DNA of 42,054 nucleotides from Bacteroidota bacterium (GTDB lineage Bacteria; Bacteroidota; Bacteroidia; Palsa-948), in NCBI GenBank assembly GCA_003164895.1, contig PLUL01000048.1, forward strand, positions 2,109-44,162, given 5' to 3'. The notes beneath the pieces are model-generated. The model saw only the letters and a list, made by a program, of their open reading frames with translations. It was not told where the DNA came from and searched no databases. Position numbers and translations under genes: made by a program. Each line of letters begins with the position of its first letter. Within the stretch, counting starts at the first letter, position 1. Of this stretch, positions 35,962 through 42,054 are shown one piece after another.

Positions 35962-36615
35962 CTAATCAATCAGTTTTAGTTTCTTGGCTTGCATTAGTAA
36001 GCCAGCAGTGTTTTTGACTTGAATTTTTTCTAATAAATTTTGCCTGTATGATTCTACCGTTCTTTTACTAAGAAATAACTTTTCTGCTATTTCTTTATTC
36101 GTATAAGCTTCGGCAATCAATTTAAGAACATCAAGTTCCCTTGATGATAAATTTTTTTTCGAAGGGTTCTTTTCATCCTTTATAGAATCATCATTTGCAT
36201 GAATCAACTTAACAGCCACCTCATTGGAATAATAATTTTTTCCGCTCAAAATAATGCTTATCGCTTTTATCAATTCATCGGAATCAATATTTTTTAACAT
36301 ATATCCTTTTGCACCTGCATTCAAAATATCTTTTATCATTAGCGTTTCATCGTAATTGGATAATGCCAGTATATTAATGTTCGGCTTCAACTTTACCATT
36401 TCCCGTGTGGTTTCTGCTCCGTTCATATCAGGCATCTGATAGTCCATTATAACCATATCGTACTTGTTTTTTTTTATTTTTTCTATTCCTTCTGATCCGG
36501 ATGCAGCTTCTTCAAATAAAAAAATATACTTGCTCTTATTCGCGTCCAGCATAGTGCGAAGCCCGTCGCGTATTATGCAGTGGTCATCAACAATCAGAAT
36601 TTTAATTTTCTTCAT
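35962..36615 (-). CDS. NarL/LuxR-type response regulator
   Basis: 217-aa cytosolic regulator. Receiver: acidic pair D10/D11 (VDDH), phospho-acceptor D58 (MVIMDYQMPDMNG), K107-type switch in GAKGYMLKN. C-terminal LuxR helix-turn-helix about 150-215 (LSSRELDVLKLIAEAYTNKEIAEKLFLSKRTVESYRQNLLEKI). The ATG overlaps the kinase stop (4 nt), so the two are made together. The divergent palindromes at 38424-38472 are candidate targets (inference). Confidence 0.94.
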   Translation of the reverse strand: MKKIKILIVDDHCIIRDGLRTMLDANKSKYIFLFEEAASGSEGIEKIKKNKYDMVIMDYQMPDMNGAETTREMVKLKPNINILALSNYDETLMIKDILNAGAKGYMLKNIDSDELIKAISIILSGKNYYSNEVAVKLIHANDDSIKDEKNPSKKNLSSRELDVLKLIAEAYTNKEIAEKLFLSKRTVESYRQNLLEKIQVKNTAGLLMQAKKLKLID

Positions 36616-37772
36616 TCTGTATTTGTTTTAACAGGAAGTGTTATCTGATACGTTGTTCCTTTATTAACAGCGCTTTTGATTTCCACCTCTCCATCGTATG
36701 AGCTAACTCTGGATCGTACATTTTGAAGCCCCATCCCATCAAATTCCCTTGATTTATTATACTCAAATCCTACTCCATCATGTTTAAGAGTGATAATTGT
36801 TTTTTTTCTATCCTGTTGCATTTTGATAATGATATTTTTTGCTTTGCCGTGTTTGATTGCATTGTTTACAAATTCCTGCACGATTCTAAAAAGTGCAATC
36901 TCAAGAGGTATATTTGAAATAGAAAAATCTTTGCTGGCGGAAATTTTGAATTTCAAATTCCACATAGATTCAATCTTTTCGTGCAGTTCTGAGATGGCGC
37001 CAATCAATCCGAATTGTTTCATGGTGCGGGGCATAATATTAAAACAAATATTTCTTAACTCGTTTACTACATAGTTAATTGCATTTTTGGATTTGGCTAT
37101 TGTTTCGAGCATTTTTTCATCGGATGTTTTACTTGTTAATGAATCAATATACGATCTTAAACCTGATAATGGTATCCCCAAGCCATCATGCAGATCTTTT
37201 GCAAAACGTTCACGCTCTTTTTCCTGAGTGTCCACAATGGTGCGAATAACTAAATTCTCCGCCTCTTTTTCTTTTGTCATGTCTTTGATTATTCCCTGAT
37301 ACTCTGCCGCTTTTTTTCCTTTGTCTTCAATTTTATTTACCGAAATCATACACTCAAACACTTTTCCGTTTTTATCTTTCAGCTTGACGTGCATATTTAT
37401 TACCAAATCAAATTTATTTAGTTGATTTTTGAAATCAACCAGCTCATTTTTATTTTGAAAAAGATGAAACAAATTAATCGCACCAAGTTTTTCAGAGGGA
37501 TATTTGAGCAATGCAAATCCGGCATGATTCAAATCTAATATCTCCCCATCTTTTTTCATGATAAAAATTATATCGCTGACCGATTGAAAGATGTTGTTGA
37601 AATAATTTTTTGAAATGGTGGTTGCTTTCAATTCTTCTCCCAGCATATTAATGCTGGAAATAAAAGCATCTATCTCATCTAATTTGGAAGACGGCTTTAC
37701 TTTATAATCAAAATTTCCCTGAGAATAATTAATAAATAAATCATTTATTTTTTCAAAGCGCGAGTCTGCCAT
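36612..37772 (-). CDS. Soluble PAS sensor histidine kinase (HisKA_3)
   Basis: 386-aa kinase with no membrane segment. A HAMP-like coil (about 1-50) and a PAS domain (about 55-165: IIFIMKKDGEILDLNHAGFALLKYPSEKLG, with a PAC tail) precede the dimerisation helix with phospho-acceptor H195 (RERFAKDLHDGLGIPLSGLRSY). The HATPase follows (FRIVQEFVNNAIKHGKAKN, GVGFEYNKSREFDGMGLQNVRSRV). It is a LiaS/NarX-type kinase that must sense a cytosolic signal. It overlaps the regulator start by 4 nt and follows the SpoIIAA-like gene by 11 nt. Confidence 0.94.
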   Translation of the reverse strand: MADSRFEKINDLFINYSQGNFDYKVKPSSKLDEIDAFISSINMLGEELKATTISKNYFNNIFQSVSDIIFIMKKDGEILDLNHAGFALLKYPSEKLGAINLFHLFQNKNELVDFKNQLNKFDLVINMHVKLKDKNGKVFECMISVNKIEDKGKKAAEYQGIIKDMTKEKEAENLVIRTIVDTQEKERERFAKDLHDGLGIPLSGLRSYIDSLTSKTSDEKMLETIAKSKNAINYVVNELRNICFNIMPRTMKQFGLIGAISELHEKIESMWNLKFKISASKDFSISNIPLEIALFRIVQEFVNNAIKHGKAKNIIIKMQQDRKKTIITLKHDGVGFEYNKSREFDGMGLQNVRSRVSSYDGEVEIKSAVNKGTTYQITLPVKTNTE

Positions 37773-37783
37773 AAGAAATAAAA

Positions 37784-38158
37784 TTACTTAAATTGCTCTA
37801 ACCATTTAATTGCTTTTTTCCTATCAGTAAAAACTTTTGATGGAACTTTTGGCTTGGAAACTTTTAAAAAAAAATTCCCCATGAATGATTGAAAAACAGA
37901 ATCCACGTAGATAGCACCTGCTTTTATTCCTTTATTGGCTTCCTCTGTTGAAAAATAATCCCTCGCATCTTTATTAATTGCTGTCACATAAATAGTTTTT
38001 ACACATACAGGGTACGATTTTCCTTCAGTAAATTCCAATCTCGTTTTTACGACCTTTTTAGCAGATTCTAGTGTTATCCTTCCTTTATACGTGCCAAATA
38101 CTATACCTTCTTTGAGTTCAAAATAACAATGCGGAGTATCAAGAGTTTTGTCATTCAT
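37784..38158 (-). CDS. SpoIIAA/STAS-like small protein
   Basis: 124-aa soluble protein. The pattern FELKEGIVFGTYKGRITLESAKKVVKTRLEFTEGKSYPVCV, ARDYFSTEEANKGIKAGAIYVDS, GNFFLKVSKPKVPSKVFTDRKKAIKWLEQF fits a group of short SpoIIAA-like (STAS fold) proteins in Bacteroidota. Such folds often bind partner proteins or small ligands. It is the first gene of the operon with the kinase and regulator, so it may feed a signal to the soluble kinase. Function not established. Confidence 0.75.
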   Translation of the reverse strand: MNDKTLDTPHCYFELKEGIVFGTYKGRITLESAKKVVKTRLEFTEGKSYPVCVKTIYVTAINKDARDYFSTEEANKGIKAGAIYVDSVFQSFMGNFFLKVSKPKVPSKVFTDRKKAIKWLEQFK

Positions 38159-38423: not shown

Positions 38424-38472
38424 TACTACCGTATTTATACGGTAGTCAATTTGTAGTATAAATACGGTAGTA
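38424..38472 (+). promoter_or_regulatory. Palindromic operator array before the AOS-GNAT gene
   Basis: Site 1 (38425-38446) is a perfect 10-bp inverted repeat, ACTACCGTAT and ATACGGTAGT, around TT. Site 2 (38456-38472) is a 17-bp exact inverted copy of TACTACCGTATTTATAC (38424-38440). Centres are about 25 bp apart. There is no T-run on either side, so it is not a terminator. It occupies the place of the -33 element; site 2 is centred near -43 and site 1 near -69 of the expected start. Confidence 0.65.
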
Positions 38473-38523: not shown

Positions 38524-40959
38524 ATGAGCGGAAAAAATACATTTGTTGAAACGGTTTTTGAAGTAGTTACCGATGCAATAAATAAAGGCATTATACATCT
38601 CTATACAGAGGATAATAAACTTTCAGGCAATACAATTCATCTCAAAGGAAGAGGAGTTGTCAATTTCGGTTCTTGCAGTTATCTCGGATTAGAATTTGAT
38701 AAAAGAATGATTGCCGCTTCGCAAGAGGCGGTTCAGAATTACGGAACCACATTTGCCGAATCAAGAGCATACGTTTCCATCAGGCAGTATGAAGAATTAG
38801 AAAGTTTATTCGGTAAAATATTTAACTATCCCACATTGGTTGCTCAAACCACCACACTCGGTCATATCGCAGCAATTCCTGTTTTAATAAATGATGGCGA
38901 TGCAATTATATTAGACCATCAGGTACATTTTTCGGTGCACACCGCGGTAAATATTGTAAAGTCAAGAGGCATTCATGTAGAAATGATTCGCCACAACAGG
39001 ATGGACATGCTGGAAGACAGAATAAAAGTATTGCGTCAGAAATATTCGCGTATATGGTACATGGCGGATGGAATTTATTCCATGTATGGTGATGCTTCGC
39101 CTGTTAACGAAGTATATGAATTGTTGAACCGTTACAAAGAGTTGTATTATTATGTGGATGATGCTCACGGCATGAGTTGTTTTGGGAAAAACGGAAACGG
39201 ATATGTGTTGAGCCAAAAACCAATGCACGAAAGAATGATTCTCGCTGCTTCTCTTGCAAAAGGTTTTGCAACAGGCGGAGCGGTATTGGTTTTTCCATCT
39301 AAAGAACTGGCAAACAAAGTAAGAAAATGCGGAAGTTCATTTATTACTTCTGGTCCCATGCAGCCATCACAATTGGGAGCTGCCATTGCTGCCGCAAAAA
39401 TTCATTTGAGCAATGAGATTTATTCTTTGCAGGAAGATTTGCATGAAAATATAAAATTTGCCGGCATGATGCTGAAGAAATATGAACTTCCTTTGGTAGC
39501 TGAAACAAATTCTCCTGTGTTTTTTGTCGGTGTGAGTTTGCCAAAGCTAGGATACAGCATGGTGAAAAGAATGTTGGATGAAGGCTATTACCTCAATCTT
39601 GGAATTTTTCCGGCGGTACCGATAAAAAATACAGGCATCCGTTTCACCATTACTCGCCTGCATACATTCAAACAAATTGAAAGTATGATTGCCACTATGG
39701 CTCATCATCTACCGATAGCCATGGCGGAAGAAGGAATTTCTTTGAAGCAAATCTACAAAGCGTTTAGAATGGAATTGCCTGAAGAAAAACAAATAACAGA
39801 ATCTGTAACTTCCTTGTTGAATAAACTTAATTTACATACTGAACATTACGATTCCATCGCTCAGGTTAATAAAGAAGAATGGAATACTTTGTTAGGCGAA
39901 AGGGGAACTTATGATTGGGGTGGTTTAAAGTTTTTAGAAGATTCATTTAGCAATAATGAATTGCCAGAAGATAACTGGACATTTGATTACCTTATTATTA
40001 AAGATAACGATGGTAAGACTATTCTCGCCACTTTTTTAACCACTGCTATATGTAAGGATGATATGCTTTCGCCTGCTGCGATTTCCGAGCAAGTTGAAGC
40101 TAAGCGCATTGGCGACAAGTATTATCTTACTTCACGCGTTCTTTTTGTTGGCTCTTTATTAACGGAAGGCAATCATTTGTATTTAGACAGAACTTCTCCT
40201 TTGTGGAAAGATGCGATGTATATTTTGTTTGAAAAGATTTCTAACCTTCAGGAAAAACACAATGCAGCTGGAATTACCATAAGAGATTTAGATGCAAACG
40301 ATAATGAAATGGTTGCTTTTTTAATTGACAATGGATACTTTAAAACTTCCATGCCAGAGAATCATCGGATAAATATTGACTGGAATGATAAACAGGAGCA
40401 CATAAATAAATTATCTGCCGGTTCAAAAAAACATTTAAAAAGATTTGCTCTTCGGCACGAAAATAAATATGAATTGGATATAATTACAAATCCAACCCAT
40501 GAAGAAATTGCTCATTGGTATCAATTATACTTGAACGTGAAACAGGCAAATCTGGCATTAAACACATTTACTTTACCCTACAAGATTTTTGAAAATATGG
40601 TTGAGCATAGTCAATGGGAAATAATCACGCTCGCATTAAAATCCGAATTTGATAAAAGAGAGGAACGGAAACCAGTAACTGTCATATTCAATTATATCAC
40701 GCAAGAAAATTATAATCCTATGATAATTGGTATTGATTATGATTTTCAGGAAGAATATAAATGTTACAAACAGGCGTTATATCAGGTAGTGATGAGAGCA
40801 AAAGAATTAAACCTGAAAAATATACACTTGGGATTTACTTCTTCATTTTGGAAAAAAACACTCGGAGCAAAACCATTTTCATCTGTTGCTTATATGCAGG
40901 TAAAAGATCATTATAACATGGAAGTTCTTGGAACAATGAGTGCGTTAGCAACTGCCTGA
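38524..40959 (+). CDS. Alpha-oxoamine synthase fused to GNAT/FemAB-like acyltransferase
   Basis: 811-aa fusion. Residues about 1-405 are a PLP-dependent alpha-oxoamine synthase (BioF/KBL/CqsA fold): VNFGSCSYLGLE, VDDAHGMSCFGK (D212-D213-A214-H215-G216) and the Schiff-base lysine K246 (ASLAKGFATGGAV). These enzymes condense an acyl-CoA with an amino acid and release CO2, giving an aminoketone. Residues about 430-811 are a GNAT/FemAB-like acyltransferase (GSKKHLKRFALRHE, YQLYLNVKQANLALNTF, NPMIIGIDYDFQEEYKCYKQALYQVVMRAKEL, LGFTSSFWKKTLGAKP). The second half could acylate the amine. Exact substrates unknown. It starts an operon with a diheme cytochrome c 6 nt downstream. Confidence 0.88.
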   Translation: MSGKNTFVETVFEVVTDAINKGIIHLYTEDNKLSGNTIHLKGRGVVNFGSCSYLGLEFDKRMIAASQEAVQNYGTTFAESRAYVSIRQYEELESLFGKIFNYPTLVAQTTTLGHIAAIPVLINDGDAIILDHQVHFSVHTAVNIVKSRGIHVEMIRHNRMDMLEDRIKVLRQKYSRIWYMADGIYSMYGDASPVNEVYELLNRYKELYYYVDDAHGMSCFGKNGNGYVLSQKPMHERMILAASLAKGFATGGAVLVFPSKELANKVRKCGSSFITSGPMQPSQLGAAIAAAKIHLSNEIYSLQEDLHENIKFAGMMLKKYELPLVAETNSPVFFVGVSLPKLGYSMVKRMLDEGYYLNLGIFPAVPIKNTGIRFTITRLHTFKQIESMIATMAHHLPIAMAEEGISLKQIYKAFRMELPEEKQITESVTSLLNKLNLHTEHYDSIAQVNKEEWNTLLGERGTYDWGGLKFLEDSFSNNELPEDNWTFDYLIIKDNDGKTILATFLTTAICKDDMLSPAAISEQVEAKRIGDKYYLTSRVLFVGSLLTEGNHLYLDRTSPLWKDAMYILFEKISNLQEKHNAAGITIRDLDANDNEMVAFLIDNGYFKTSMPENHRINIDWNDKQEHINKLSAGSKKHLKRFALRHENKYELDIITNPTHEEIAHWYQLYLNVKQANLALNTFTLPYKIFENMVEHSQWEIITLALKSEFDKREERKPVTVIFNYITQENYNPMIIGIDYDFQEEYKCYKQALYQVVMRAKELNLKNIHLGFTSSFWKKTLGAKPFSSVAYMQVKDHYNMEVLGTMSALATA

Positions 40960-40965
40960 TACCGA

Positions 40966-41940
40966 ATGAAAAAAGTATTCAAATACATAGGATACACACT
41001 TGGAGGTTTGATTTTCCTTTTGATTTTATTATTTGTTTTTGTCTATGCATCCAGCACCATTCAAATCAACAAACAATACGATATTAAACCATCAGCGTTG
41101 AAAATACCTTCGGATAGTTCTACAATTAAAAACGGAGAACGGTTGTATGTTTTAAGAGGATGCACTTATTGCCATGGCATTGACCTTAGCGGAAAAACAA
41201 TTATGTCCGATCCGTTGTTGGGCGTAATAGCAGGACCAAATTTGACAAAAGGAAAAGGCGGATTACCTGCGGATTACAGCGATCAGGATTATGTAAGAGC
41301 AATAAGGCATGGAGTAGGTCGCAGTAGAAAAGGATTAATGTACATGTCTGCGGAAGAATTTTATTATTTCAACGATAAGGATTTATCCGCCATTATTGCA
41401 TACATAAAAACTATTCCTCAAGTTGATAATGTTCCGGAAACAAACGTGGCAGGTCCATTAATGAGGTTGTTGTTCCTGATGGATAAAGCGCCCATCATTG
41501 CCGCAAAAGTGATTGACCATAATGCCCCCAGACCTGCCGATGTGAAAGAAGATACCACCGCGGAATATGGACACTACATGTCTATAAGCTGTGCAGATTG
41601 TCATGGTGCCGGATTATCAGGTGGCGAAGTGCCGGCGGCTCCTCCGGGCACGCCCCTTGCTCCAAACATTACGTTTGATAAAAAAACAGGAATAGGAAAC
41701 TGGTCAAAAGAAGATTTTGCAAAAGCAATGCGTGCCGGAATAAGACCGAATGGGAAACCCATTGACCCATTTATGCCATGGCAAAATTTTAGCCGGATGA
41801 CGGATGTTGAACTTAATGCCATGTGGGTTTATCTCCGCTCACTGCCACAAAAATCTTTTGGAGAGGAATTGGCAAAATCAGAACAATCGGTTCAAGAACC
41901 AAAAGAAAATAACGAACGTAATTTAAAAGCACAAAAATGA
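40966..41940 (+). CDS. Membrane-anchored diheme cytochrome c
   Basis: 324-aa protein with one N-terminal membrane helix (about 8-30). Two c-type haem sites: C66-T-Y-C-H (GCTYCHGIDLSG) and C209-A-D-C-H (CADCHGAGLSGG). Each domain has a GPNLT- or APNIT-type segment and a YxxxG-like loop, and possible Met ligands (LMYMSAEEF; FMPWQNFSRMTDVEL). Domain layout resembles cytochrome subunits of PQQ- or FAD-dependent dehydrogenases. It follows the fusion gene by 6 nt and is likely co-transcribed. Role unknown; it could pass electrons from an envelope dehydrogenase. Confidence 0.9.
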   Translation: MKKVFKYIGYTLGGLIFLLILLFVFVYASSTIQINKQYDIKPSALKIPSDSSTIKNGERLYVLRGCTYCHGIDLSGKTIMSDPLLGVIAGPNLTKGKGGLPADYSDQDYVRAIRHGVGRSRKGLMYMSAEEFYYFNDKDLSAIIAYIKTIPQVDNVPETNVAGPLMRLLFLMDKAPIIAAKVIDHNAPRPADVKEDTTAEYGHYMSISCADCHGAGLSGGEVPAAPPGTPLAPNITFDKKTGIGNWSKEDFAKAMRAGIRPNGKPIDPFMPWQNFSRMTDVELNAMWVYLRSLPQKSFGEELAKSEQSVQEPKENNERNLKAQK

Positions 41941-42039
41941 TGCTGCCAATCACAATTAATGAGTTTATCCAAAGGAGAATTTAGTCGGTTTAATCTAAAA
42001 TCAAAAATAACGCTGCTAAAAGATAATGGAAAGATTTTG

Positions 42040-42054
42040 ATGAAGAAAAAAATA
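42040..42054 (+). CDS. Possible start of the next gene (window edge)
   Basis: ATG AAG AAA AAA ATA reads MKKKI, a typical start of a secreted protein, with a purine-rich stretch 9-15 nt upstream. It runs off the end, so nothing more can be said. The 99 bases before it (41941-42039) hold no recognisable feature. Confidence 0.25.

Follow-up and report, generated by a model that had tools for sequence, protein, structure and literature searches.

A fused alpha-oxoamine synthase and FemAB-like transferase kept beside a PAS sensor in Bacteroidota: a candidate signal synthase/receptor pair

Introduction

In the CqsA/CqsS system (signal CAI-1), an enzyme of the alpha-oxoamine synthase (AOS) type is linked to a sensor kinase. 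In another described system, VqmA, a cytoplasmic protein with PAS and helix-turn-helix (HTH) parts, is activated by DPO, a small nitrogenous molecule derived from an amino acid. AOS condensation followed by N-acylation is also known from lipids, i.e., from sulfonolipids (cysteate fatty acyltransferase) and from ceramides, in the bacterial synthesis of which the AOS Spt is combined with the N-acyltransferase bCerS (PMC11334938). In this work, we describe a gene whose product joins an AOS to a FemAB-like transferase domain (the AOS-FemAB fusion). It lies within a 42,054-nt stretch of DNA (hereinafter the window) of a Bacteroidota bacterium (assembly GCA_003164895.1, contig PLUL01000048.1, positions 2,109 to 44,162 of the forward strand).

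The fusion is kept beside a conserved PAS sensor across many Bacteroidota, which raises the possibility that its product is a chemical signal not recognised so far. The reading that we favour, tentatively and without calling it probable, is that an alpha-aminoketone, N-acylated or possibly N-aminoacylated, is made by the fusion and sensed by the linked PAS protein, the two proteins constituting a synthase/receptor pair. To our knowledge, cell-cell signals of Bacteroidota are poorly known, and a synthase kept beside one type of sensor, the output domain of which is swapped between lineages, and which also travels on conjugative elements, constitutes a concrete and testable signal candidate. Even if the product were a lipid, an AOS and a FemABX-type transferase combined in one protein would represent an unstudied route for making an aminoketone and capping it. 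Within the open literature (subscription papers were outside the search), nothing specific was found on the AOS-FemAB fusion, its mobile elements, or an AOS-based signal pair of Bacteroidota.

The Fusion Protein and Its AOS Half

The fusion gene (38524..40959, + strand) starts with ATG and is a single in-frame open reading frame (ORF) encoding a protein of 811 aa, in which residues ~12-394 constitute a pyridoxal phosphate (PLP)-dependent AOS and residues ~420-811 a tandem-GNAT part (FemABX-like, PF13480/PF04339). PF00155 was matched over residues 45-376 (1.6e-15, Pfam), and the N-terminal half was also recognised by the AOS models of NCBIfam. A preliminary description of this locus had reported an AOS-type domain with an intact PLP lysine and a DDAHG motif, joined in frame to a GNAT/FemAB-like domain and followed, after a 6-nt gap, by a second ORF, and in all these points it was correct. 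The motif occupies residues 212-216 and the lysine is K246, both of which align with KBL and BioF of the same genome; both ORFs and the gap are present, and the joining of the two domains is confirmed by family matches and by the predicted FemX-like fold of the second one.

H135, D212, H215, K246, and the carboxylate-binding R373 align with residues of the KBL, BioF, and cysteate acyltransferase encoded in the same genome, two of these enzymes having E at the position of D182. In the alignment of 79 fusions, all six residues (H135, D182, D212, H215, K246, and R373) are found among 87 near-invariant positions. The stacking His, the Asp/His pair, the Schiff-base Lys, and the carboxylate Arg expected of the AOS superfamily are thus present. 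The predicted model of the whole protein is confident (pLDDT of 89 and pTM of 0.77), and its AOS half gave target-normalised TM-scores of ~0.85-0.90 with most bacterial AOS structures. An AOS half joined to an acyl/aminoacyl-transferase-type domain is supported. It was shown previously that the 'gatekeeper' V79 of ThAOS has a Val counterpart in KBL and a Ser counterpart in SPT and AONS (PMC11906848). Position 80 of the fusion, which aligns with V78 of KBL, is an invariant Ser, so glycine would not be the obvious substrate.

In NCBIfam, membership in an equivalog family means a score above the curated cut-off. The fusion remained far below the cut-offs (score/cut-off in bits) for KBL (106/493 and 129/460), BioF (149/426), SPT (159/640), ALAS (94/339), and CqsA-type enzymes (65/428), and it gave only 54-61 bits against the cysteate fatty acyltransferases 7u7h/28eh; all of these identities were rejected. 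Moreover, the source genome encodes KBL elsewhere (680 bits, above the cut-off), BioF within a biotin cluster, and a separate cysteate fatty acyltransferase (7u7h matched with 615 bits and 28eh with 585). As these three enzymes are encoded separately, the fusion appears to be a fourth AOS with another role. A plain KBL or BioF function, the simple products of which (2-amino-3-ketobutyrate or 8-amino-7-oxononanoate) the preliminary description had named among the findings that would overturn its proposal, as well as a simple cysteate acyltransferase function, are ruled out as far as scores and separate orthologs can tell.

The best curated model was NF005697/PRK07505 (an AOS 'hypothetical protein'), which is the top model for both the fusion and its standalone relatives (251-265 bits). 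However, the fusion (251 bits) is below the cut-off of 342, whereas a Rhizobium protein scores 521, which places the fusion in a sister group and not among the members. Among solved structures, the closest to the AOS half is Alb29 of the albogrisin pathway (PDB 8xhk/8xha; Foldseek 8.7e-33, 25% identity), which is also the best PDB sequence match of the fusion. In contrast to the fusion, Alb29 is a standalone enzyme with no fused transferase, and its reported substrate is L-glutamate (PMC11906848).

The C-Terminal Half and Its Possible Donors

The C-terminal half of the window protein (~420-811) gave no Pfam match on its own, but among 35 aligned fusion members Acetyltransf_6 (PF13480) was matched by 28 (best 3e-9) and FemAB_like (PF04339) by 10. 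The AlphaFold model of this half alone is likewise confident (pLDDT 89, pTM 0.84) and shows a predicted FemX-like fold. FemX and FemA ranked first in the Foldseek comparison (FemX 7z5y, 1.7e-12, prob 1.00), followed by Sbb17/Sba18 (aminoacyl-tRNA-dependent peptide synthases) and A-PGS, and then by tandem GNATs. On the predicted model, two GNAT-like domains with the FemX-type fold can be distinguished, as in FemX, FemA, and other FemABX/tandem-GNAT proteins. The near-invariant set of this half (79 fusions) includes K511, D513, E525, R528, R587, and K777. The differences from FemABX proteins are the identity of ~12% and the fusion to an AOS, and a peptidoglycan-precursor acceptor cannot be assumed.

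The predicted structure points to FemX-type users of aminoacyl-tRNA as the model for the donor, since aminoacyl-tRNA-dependent transferases or synthases constitute the top 11 structural matches. A variant of the signal reading would build on this: with an aminoacyl-tRNA donor, the product would be an N-aminoacyl-aminoketone converted into a pyrazinone, sensed much as DPO is sensed by VqmA. DPO is formed from threonine catabolism via Tdh and activates VqmA (PMC6451090), and here, too, a PAS protein with a DNA-binding (AraC-type) domain occurs. However, DPO requires Tdh and not an AOS fusion, the TM-scores of the matches are modest (~0.44-0.58 on the query, with identity of ~10-13%), and acyl-CoA-using tandem GNATs follow close behind. 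In addition, the PAS sensor gave no significant sequence match in PDB, VqmA included, and homology indicates no ligand for it. We consider this variant quite improbable.

An acyl-CoA donor is suggested by the gene order around the nearest standalone relatives of the C-terminal half, as in two genomes they directly precede an acyl-CoA thioesterase-like gene (the thioesterase was judged by eye from sequence). The same observation speaks for the main rival of the signal reading, namely that the fusion is an accessory enzyme of lipid synthesis under local regulation. Its product would then be an envelope component, an N-acylated long-chain aminoketone resembling ceramides or sulfonolipids, and the only task of the PAS sensor and the DUF7793 protein encoded beside the fusion would be to adjust its expression to stress or redox state. 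The pairing of Spt with bCerS in ceramide synthesis fits this explanation, as do the matches of several fusion members to FemAB_like. On the other hand, no ketone reductase is recurrently linked to the fusion (one isolated SDR-like neighbour was found, in L178), although Bacteroidota often scatter their sphingolipid genes Spt-CerR-bCerS (PMC11334938). Furthermore, the AOS half is far under the SPT cut-offs, the source genome has its own cysteate acyltransferase, the distribution of the fusion is patchy and mobile, and a regulator-only role alone leaves one sensor type with two outputs unexplained. We regard the lipid enzyme as unlikely.

Distribution of the Fusion

A scan of genome contigs, in which loci were picked by their likeness to the window, revealed the AOS-FemAB fusion in 80 other loci, nearly all with full-length genes (41-62% identity), and the host was a member of Bacteroidota wherever its group was named. 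This was the search for the same domain order and gene neighbours proposed in the preliminary description, and besides conserved divergent neighbours (see below) it showed that the fusion is not a rarity but is widespread in Bacteroidota. In an independent, even draw of 395 Bacteroidota genomes, eight carried the fusion, in nine copies; none was found in six genomes of the same genus, and in Aequorivita antarctica different contigs carry a total of three copies. The fusion gene is accessory. In the tree of AOS halves, standalone AOS enzymes are placed at the base (several deep nodes are weakly supported), and judging from these sequences the fusion was probably gained once and then lost a few times.

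Decayed copies were also observed (L198 (6059-6879), L199 (5849-6681), L117 (6934-9361), and L058, one of the 80 loci, where the fusion is split by a frameshift). These are remnants beside other sequence or genes frameshifted into two ORFs, and their DUF7793 and sensor genes are still open; a TraG fragment lies beside the remnant of L199.

The Divergent PAS Sensor Module

Upstream of the fusion gene, three genes packed as an operon are encoded on the opposite (-) strand. The first (37784..38158) encodes a DUF7793 protein of 124 aa (PF25056, SpoIIAA-like), kept in 73 of the 80 loci. It is followed by the gene of a soluble sensor histidine kinase of 386 aa (36612..37772), composed of a HAMP-like N-terminus, PAS, HisKA_3, and HATPase_c, with no transmembrane (TM) segment, and by the gene of a NarL/LuxR-type response regulator (35962..36615; Response_reg and GerE), which has an overlap of 4 nt with the kinase gene. 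The PAS sensor, recognised by its N-terminal sensor part, is located within four genes of the fusion in 75/80 loci. Some of the loci scored as lacking DUF7793 or the sensor are cut contigs or contain genes hidden by overlapping ORFs in ORF picking.

By size, the sensors of these 75 loci fall into 47 kinase-like and 28 AraC-like ones. Most lineages, including that of the window, have a histidine kinase as the sensor, often accompanied by a LuxR-type regulator. Flavobacteriaceae have the same N-terminal sensor part fused to an AraC-type HTH. The two types are homologous in their N-terminal sensor part.

Since the 80 loci had been chosen by likeness to the window, the link was retested on the 395-genome sample, where the sensor directly adjoins all nine copies of the fusion (one of them frameshifted, G057). 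In both sets, a synthase gene thus stands beside a dedicated sensor gene, as in AOS-based quorum sensing. Of 12 short sensors detected in the sample, nine lie beside the fusion, two beside a truncated AOS remnant, and one beside an integrase; the two near remnants are decayed copies, with a TraG fragment confirmed at one. The link between the fusion and the sensor is strong in most lineages. The idea of a signal, put forward in the preliminary description, was a reasonable guess, and it is strengthened by the conserved PAS-sensor linkage, which lies outside the coordinates covered there and was not part of that description.

For the favoured synthase/receptor pair, the following course may be proposed, in which the substrates, the product, its binding by the sensor, and the regulated target are all inferred. 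The AOS half would condense an amino acid and an acyl thioester into an alpha-aminoketone, CO2 being released, and the FemABX-like half would transfer to the newly formed amine either an acyl group (from acyl-CoA/ACP) or an aminoacyl group (from aminoacyl-tRNA); in the latter case, ring closure could yield a pyrazinone-like compound. The product, as such or after cyclisation, would bind to the cytoplasmic PAS sensor encoded divergently from the fusion. The sensor would work with the DUF7793 protein and give its output through the kinase and LuxR-type regulator, as in the window, or, on conjugative elements, through an AraC domain of its own.

Several points weigh against such a pair. The same neighbourhood would result if the sensor only regulated the enzyme, e.g., a lipid enzyme, the range of ligands bound by PAS domains is wide, and no exporter is conserved beside the fusion gene. 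In L200, the sensor occurs without any enzyme, beside a tyrosine recombinase (integrase), and in the family of G037 the fusion genes are mostly without these sensors, so the link should be regarded as lineage-wide and not universal. Finally, the correlation of enzyme and sensor distances (0.81-0.84) is not above that of the enzyme and RteC (0.86), a regulator of the conjugative elements described below. Therefore, block inheritance may explain the congruence, and specific co-evolution of enzyme and sensor was rejected.

A candidate operator is the 22-bp palindrome ACTACCGTATTTATACGGTAGT (38425..38446), which lies within the divergent promoter region, 78-99 nt before the start of the fusion gene, and is followed by a second partial copy. 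Only one exact site was found in the source genome and none in the other loci; the palindrome is specific to the source genome, and a conserved operator was rejected.

DUF7793 is a multi-copy family in the source genome (seven copies over the cut-off), and none of the three other copies inspected lies beside a histidine kinase. A distant HAMP-like and PAS sensor part (E ~1e-21 to 1e-28) was recognised in ~600-aa proteins of genomes of family f22 (G042, G081, G092, G285, and others); these genomes gave no AOS match, and the one protein inspected (L201) is a histidine kinase.

Standalone AOS Relatives and Comparison with CqsA/CqsS

In the AOS-only loci, histidine kinases occupy 9 of the 45 slots directly adjoining the AOS gene and none of the 132 more distant slots (Fisher 2e-6, with the caveat that these loci are not entirely independent of one another). 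By simple hydropathy, four or five N-terminal TM helices are predicted for most of these kinases. No separately encoded GNAT was detected by profile in the surroundings of the standalone AOS genes. The arrangement of an AOS and a multi-TM kinase resembles that of CqsA/CqsS, the receptor being a membrane protein and not a cytoplasmic one. The fusion, however, differs from CqsA in its score (65 bits vs. the cut-off of 428) and in its fused transferase, and the kinase of the window is a soluble protein with PAS and HisKA_3. CqsA/CqsS and DPO/VqmA are best treated as analogies, as the fusion and its sensor belong to neither system.

Mobile Elements and the Adjoining Cassette

Downstream of the fusion in Flavobacteriaceae lie genes for RteC (210.8 bits), for an HTH protein, and for conjugation, among them that of a TraG ATPase (214 bits, its ORF being cut by the locus end); a TraG-D fragment was also found. 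In this lineage, the fusion block is thus cargo of RteC/TraG-type conjugative elements; no conjugation genes were seen within the window. In CTnDOT, RteC controls the excision and transfer genes and is itself under the RteA/RteB two-component system (PMC1976400). The likeness consists in an RteC-type conjugative element with an adjacent regulatory system, but here AOS-FemAB, DUF7793, and PAS-AraC adjoin RteC, not the tetracycline-induced RteA/RteB. By analogy, the AOS-FemAB/PAS-AraC block might control the transfer of the element.

The cargo-like location would also agree with a secondary metabolite or defensive product (an antibiotic-like aminoketone) carried by mobile elements together with a dedicated regulator and having no signalling role, and the kinship of the AOS half with Alb29 of the albogrisin pathway points in the same direction. 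However, no biosynthetic cluster or exporter surrounds the fusion, and the sensor and DUF7793 are its sole constant partners, so that we regard this explanation as highly improbable.

A second recurrent cassette is located by the module. It comprises a MauE membrane protein, a small signal-peptide protein (DUF6520-like), and SusD/SusC, to which an S9 peptidase is added on mobile elements. It lies beyond the sensor in L114, L198, L199, L200, and L202, and downstream of the fusion in L021, L023, L024, L031, L041, and L045. In the sampled genomes of the Flavobacteriaceae type, MauE follows every short AraC-type sensor, including the enzyme-less one. The cassette may be a regulated target. Taking the favoured reading further, the bifunctional synthase, the cytoplasmic PAS sensor, and DUF7793 would form a new signal system of Bacteroidota, which on RteC-type elements would couple a self-made signal to transfer or to the MauE/DUF6520/SusCD cassette; this wider proposal is conceivable, but we hold it as doubtful.

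Genes Downstream of the Fusion

The ORF that starts 6 nt after the fusion (40966..41940, + strand) encodes a membrane-anchored diheme c-type cytochrome of 324 aa. Its two CxxCH motifs lie at residues 66 and 209, and a single hydrophobic segment is located at the N-terminus. In the preliminary description, it was considered a later oxidation step of the pathway. This role was not borne out, as a search of all the other loci found the cytochrome next to the fusion in none of them; as a feature of the window only, outside the conserved module, it was rejected as a pathway partner, and its position beside the fusion is incidental. Further downstream, the window contains the start of a gene for a small conserved protein of ~80 aa (41959..42054, + strand), cut by the contig end. 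Members of this family, which has no Pfam match, are encoded downstream of the fusion in 31 other loci, in kinase-type lineages, and the cytochrome gene separates the fusion from this small ORF in the window.

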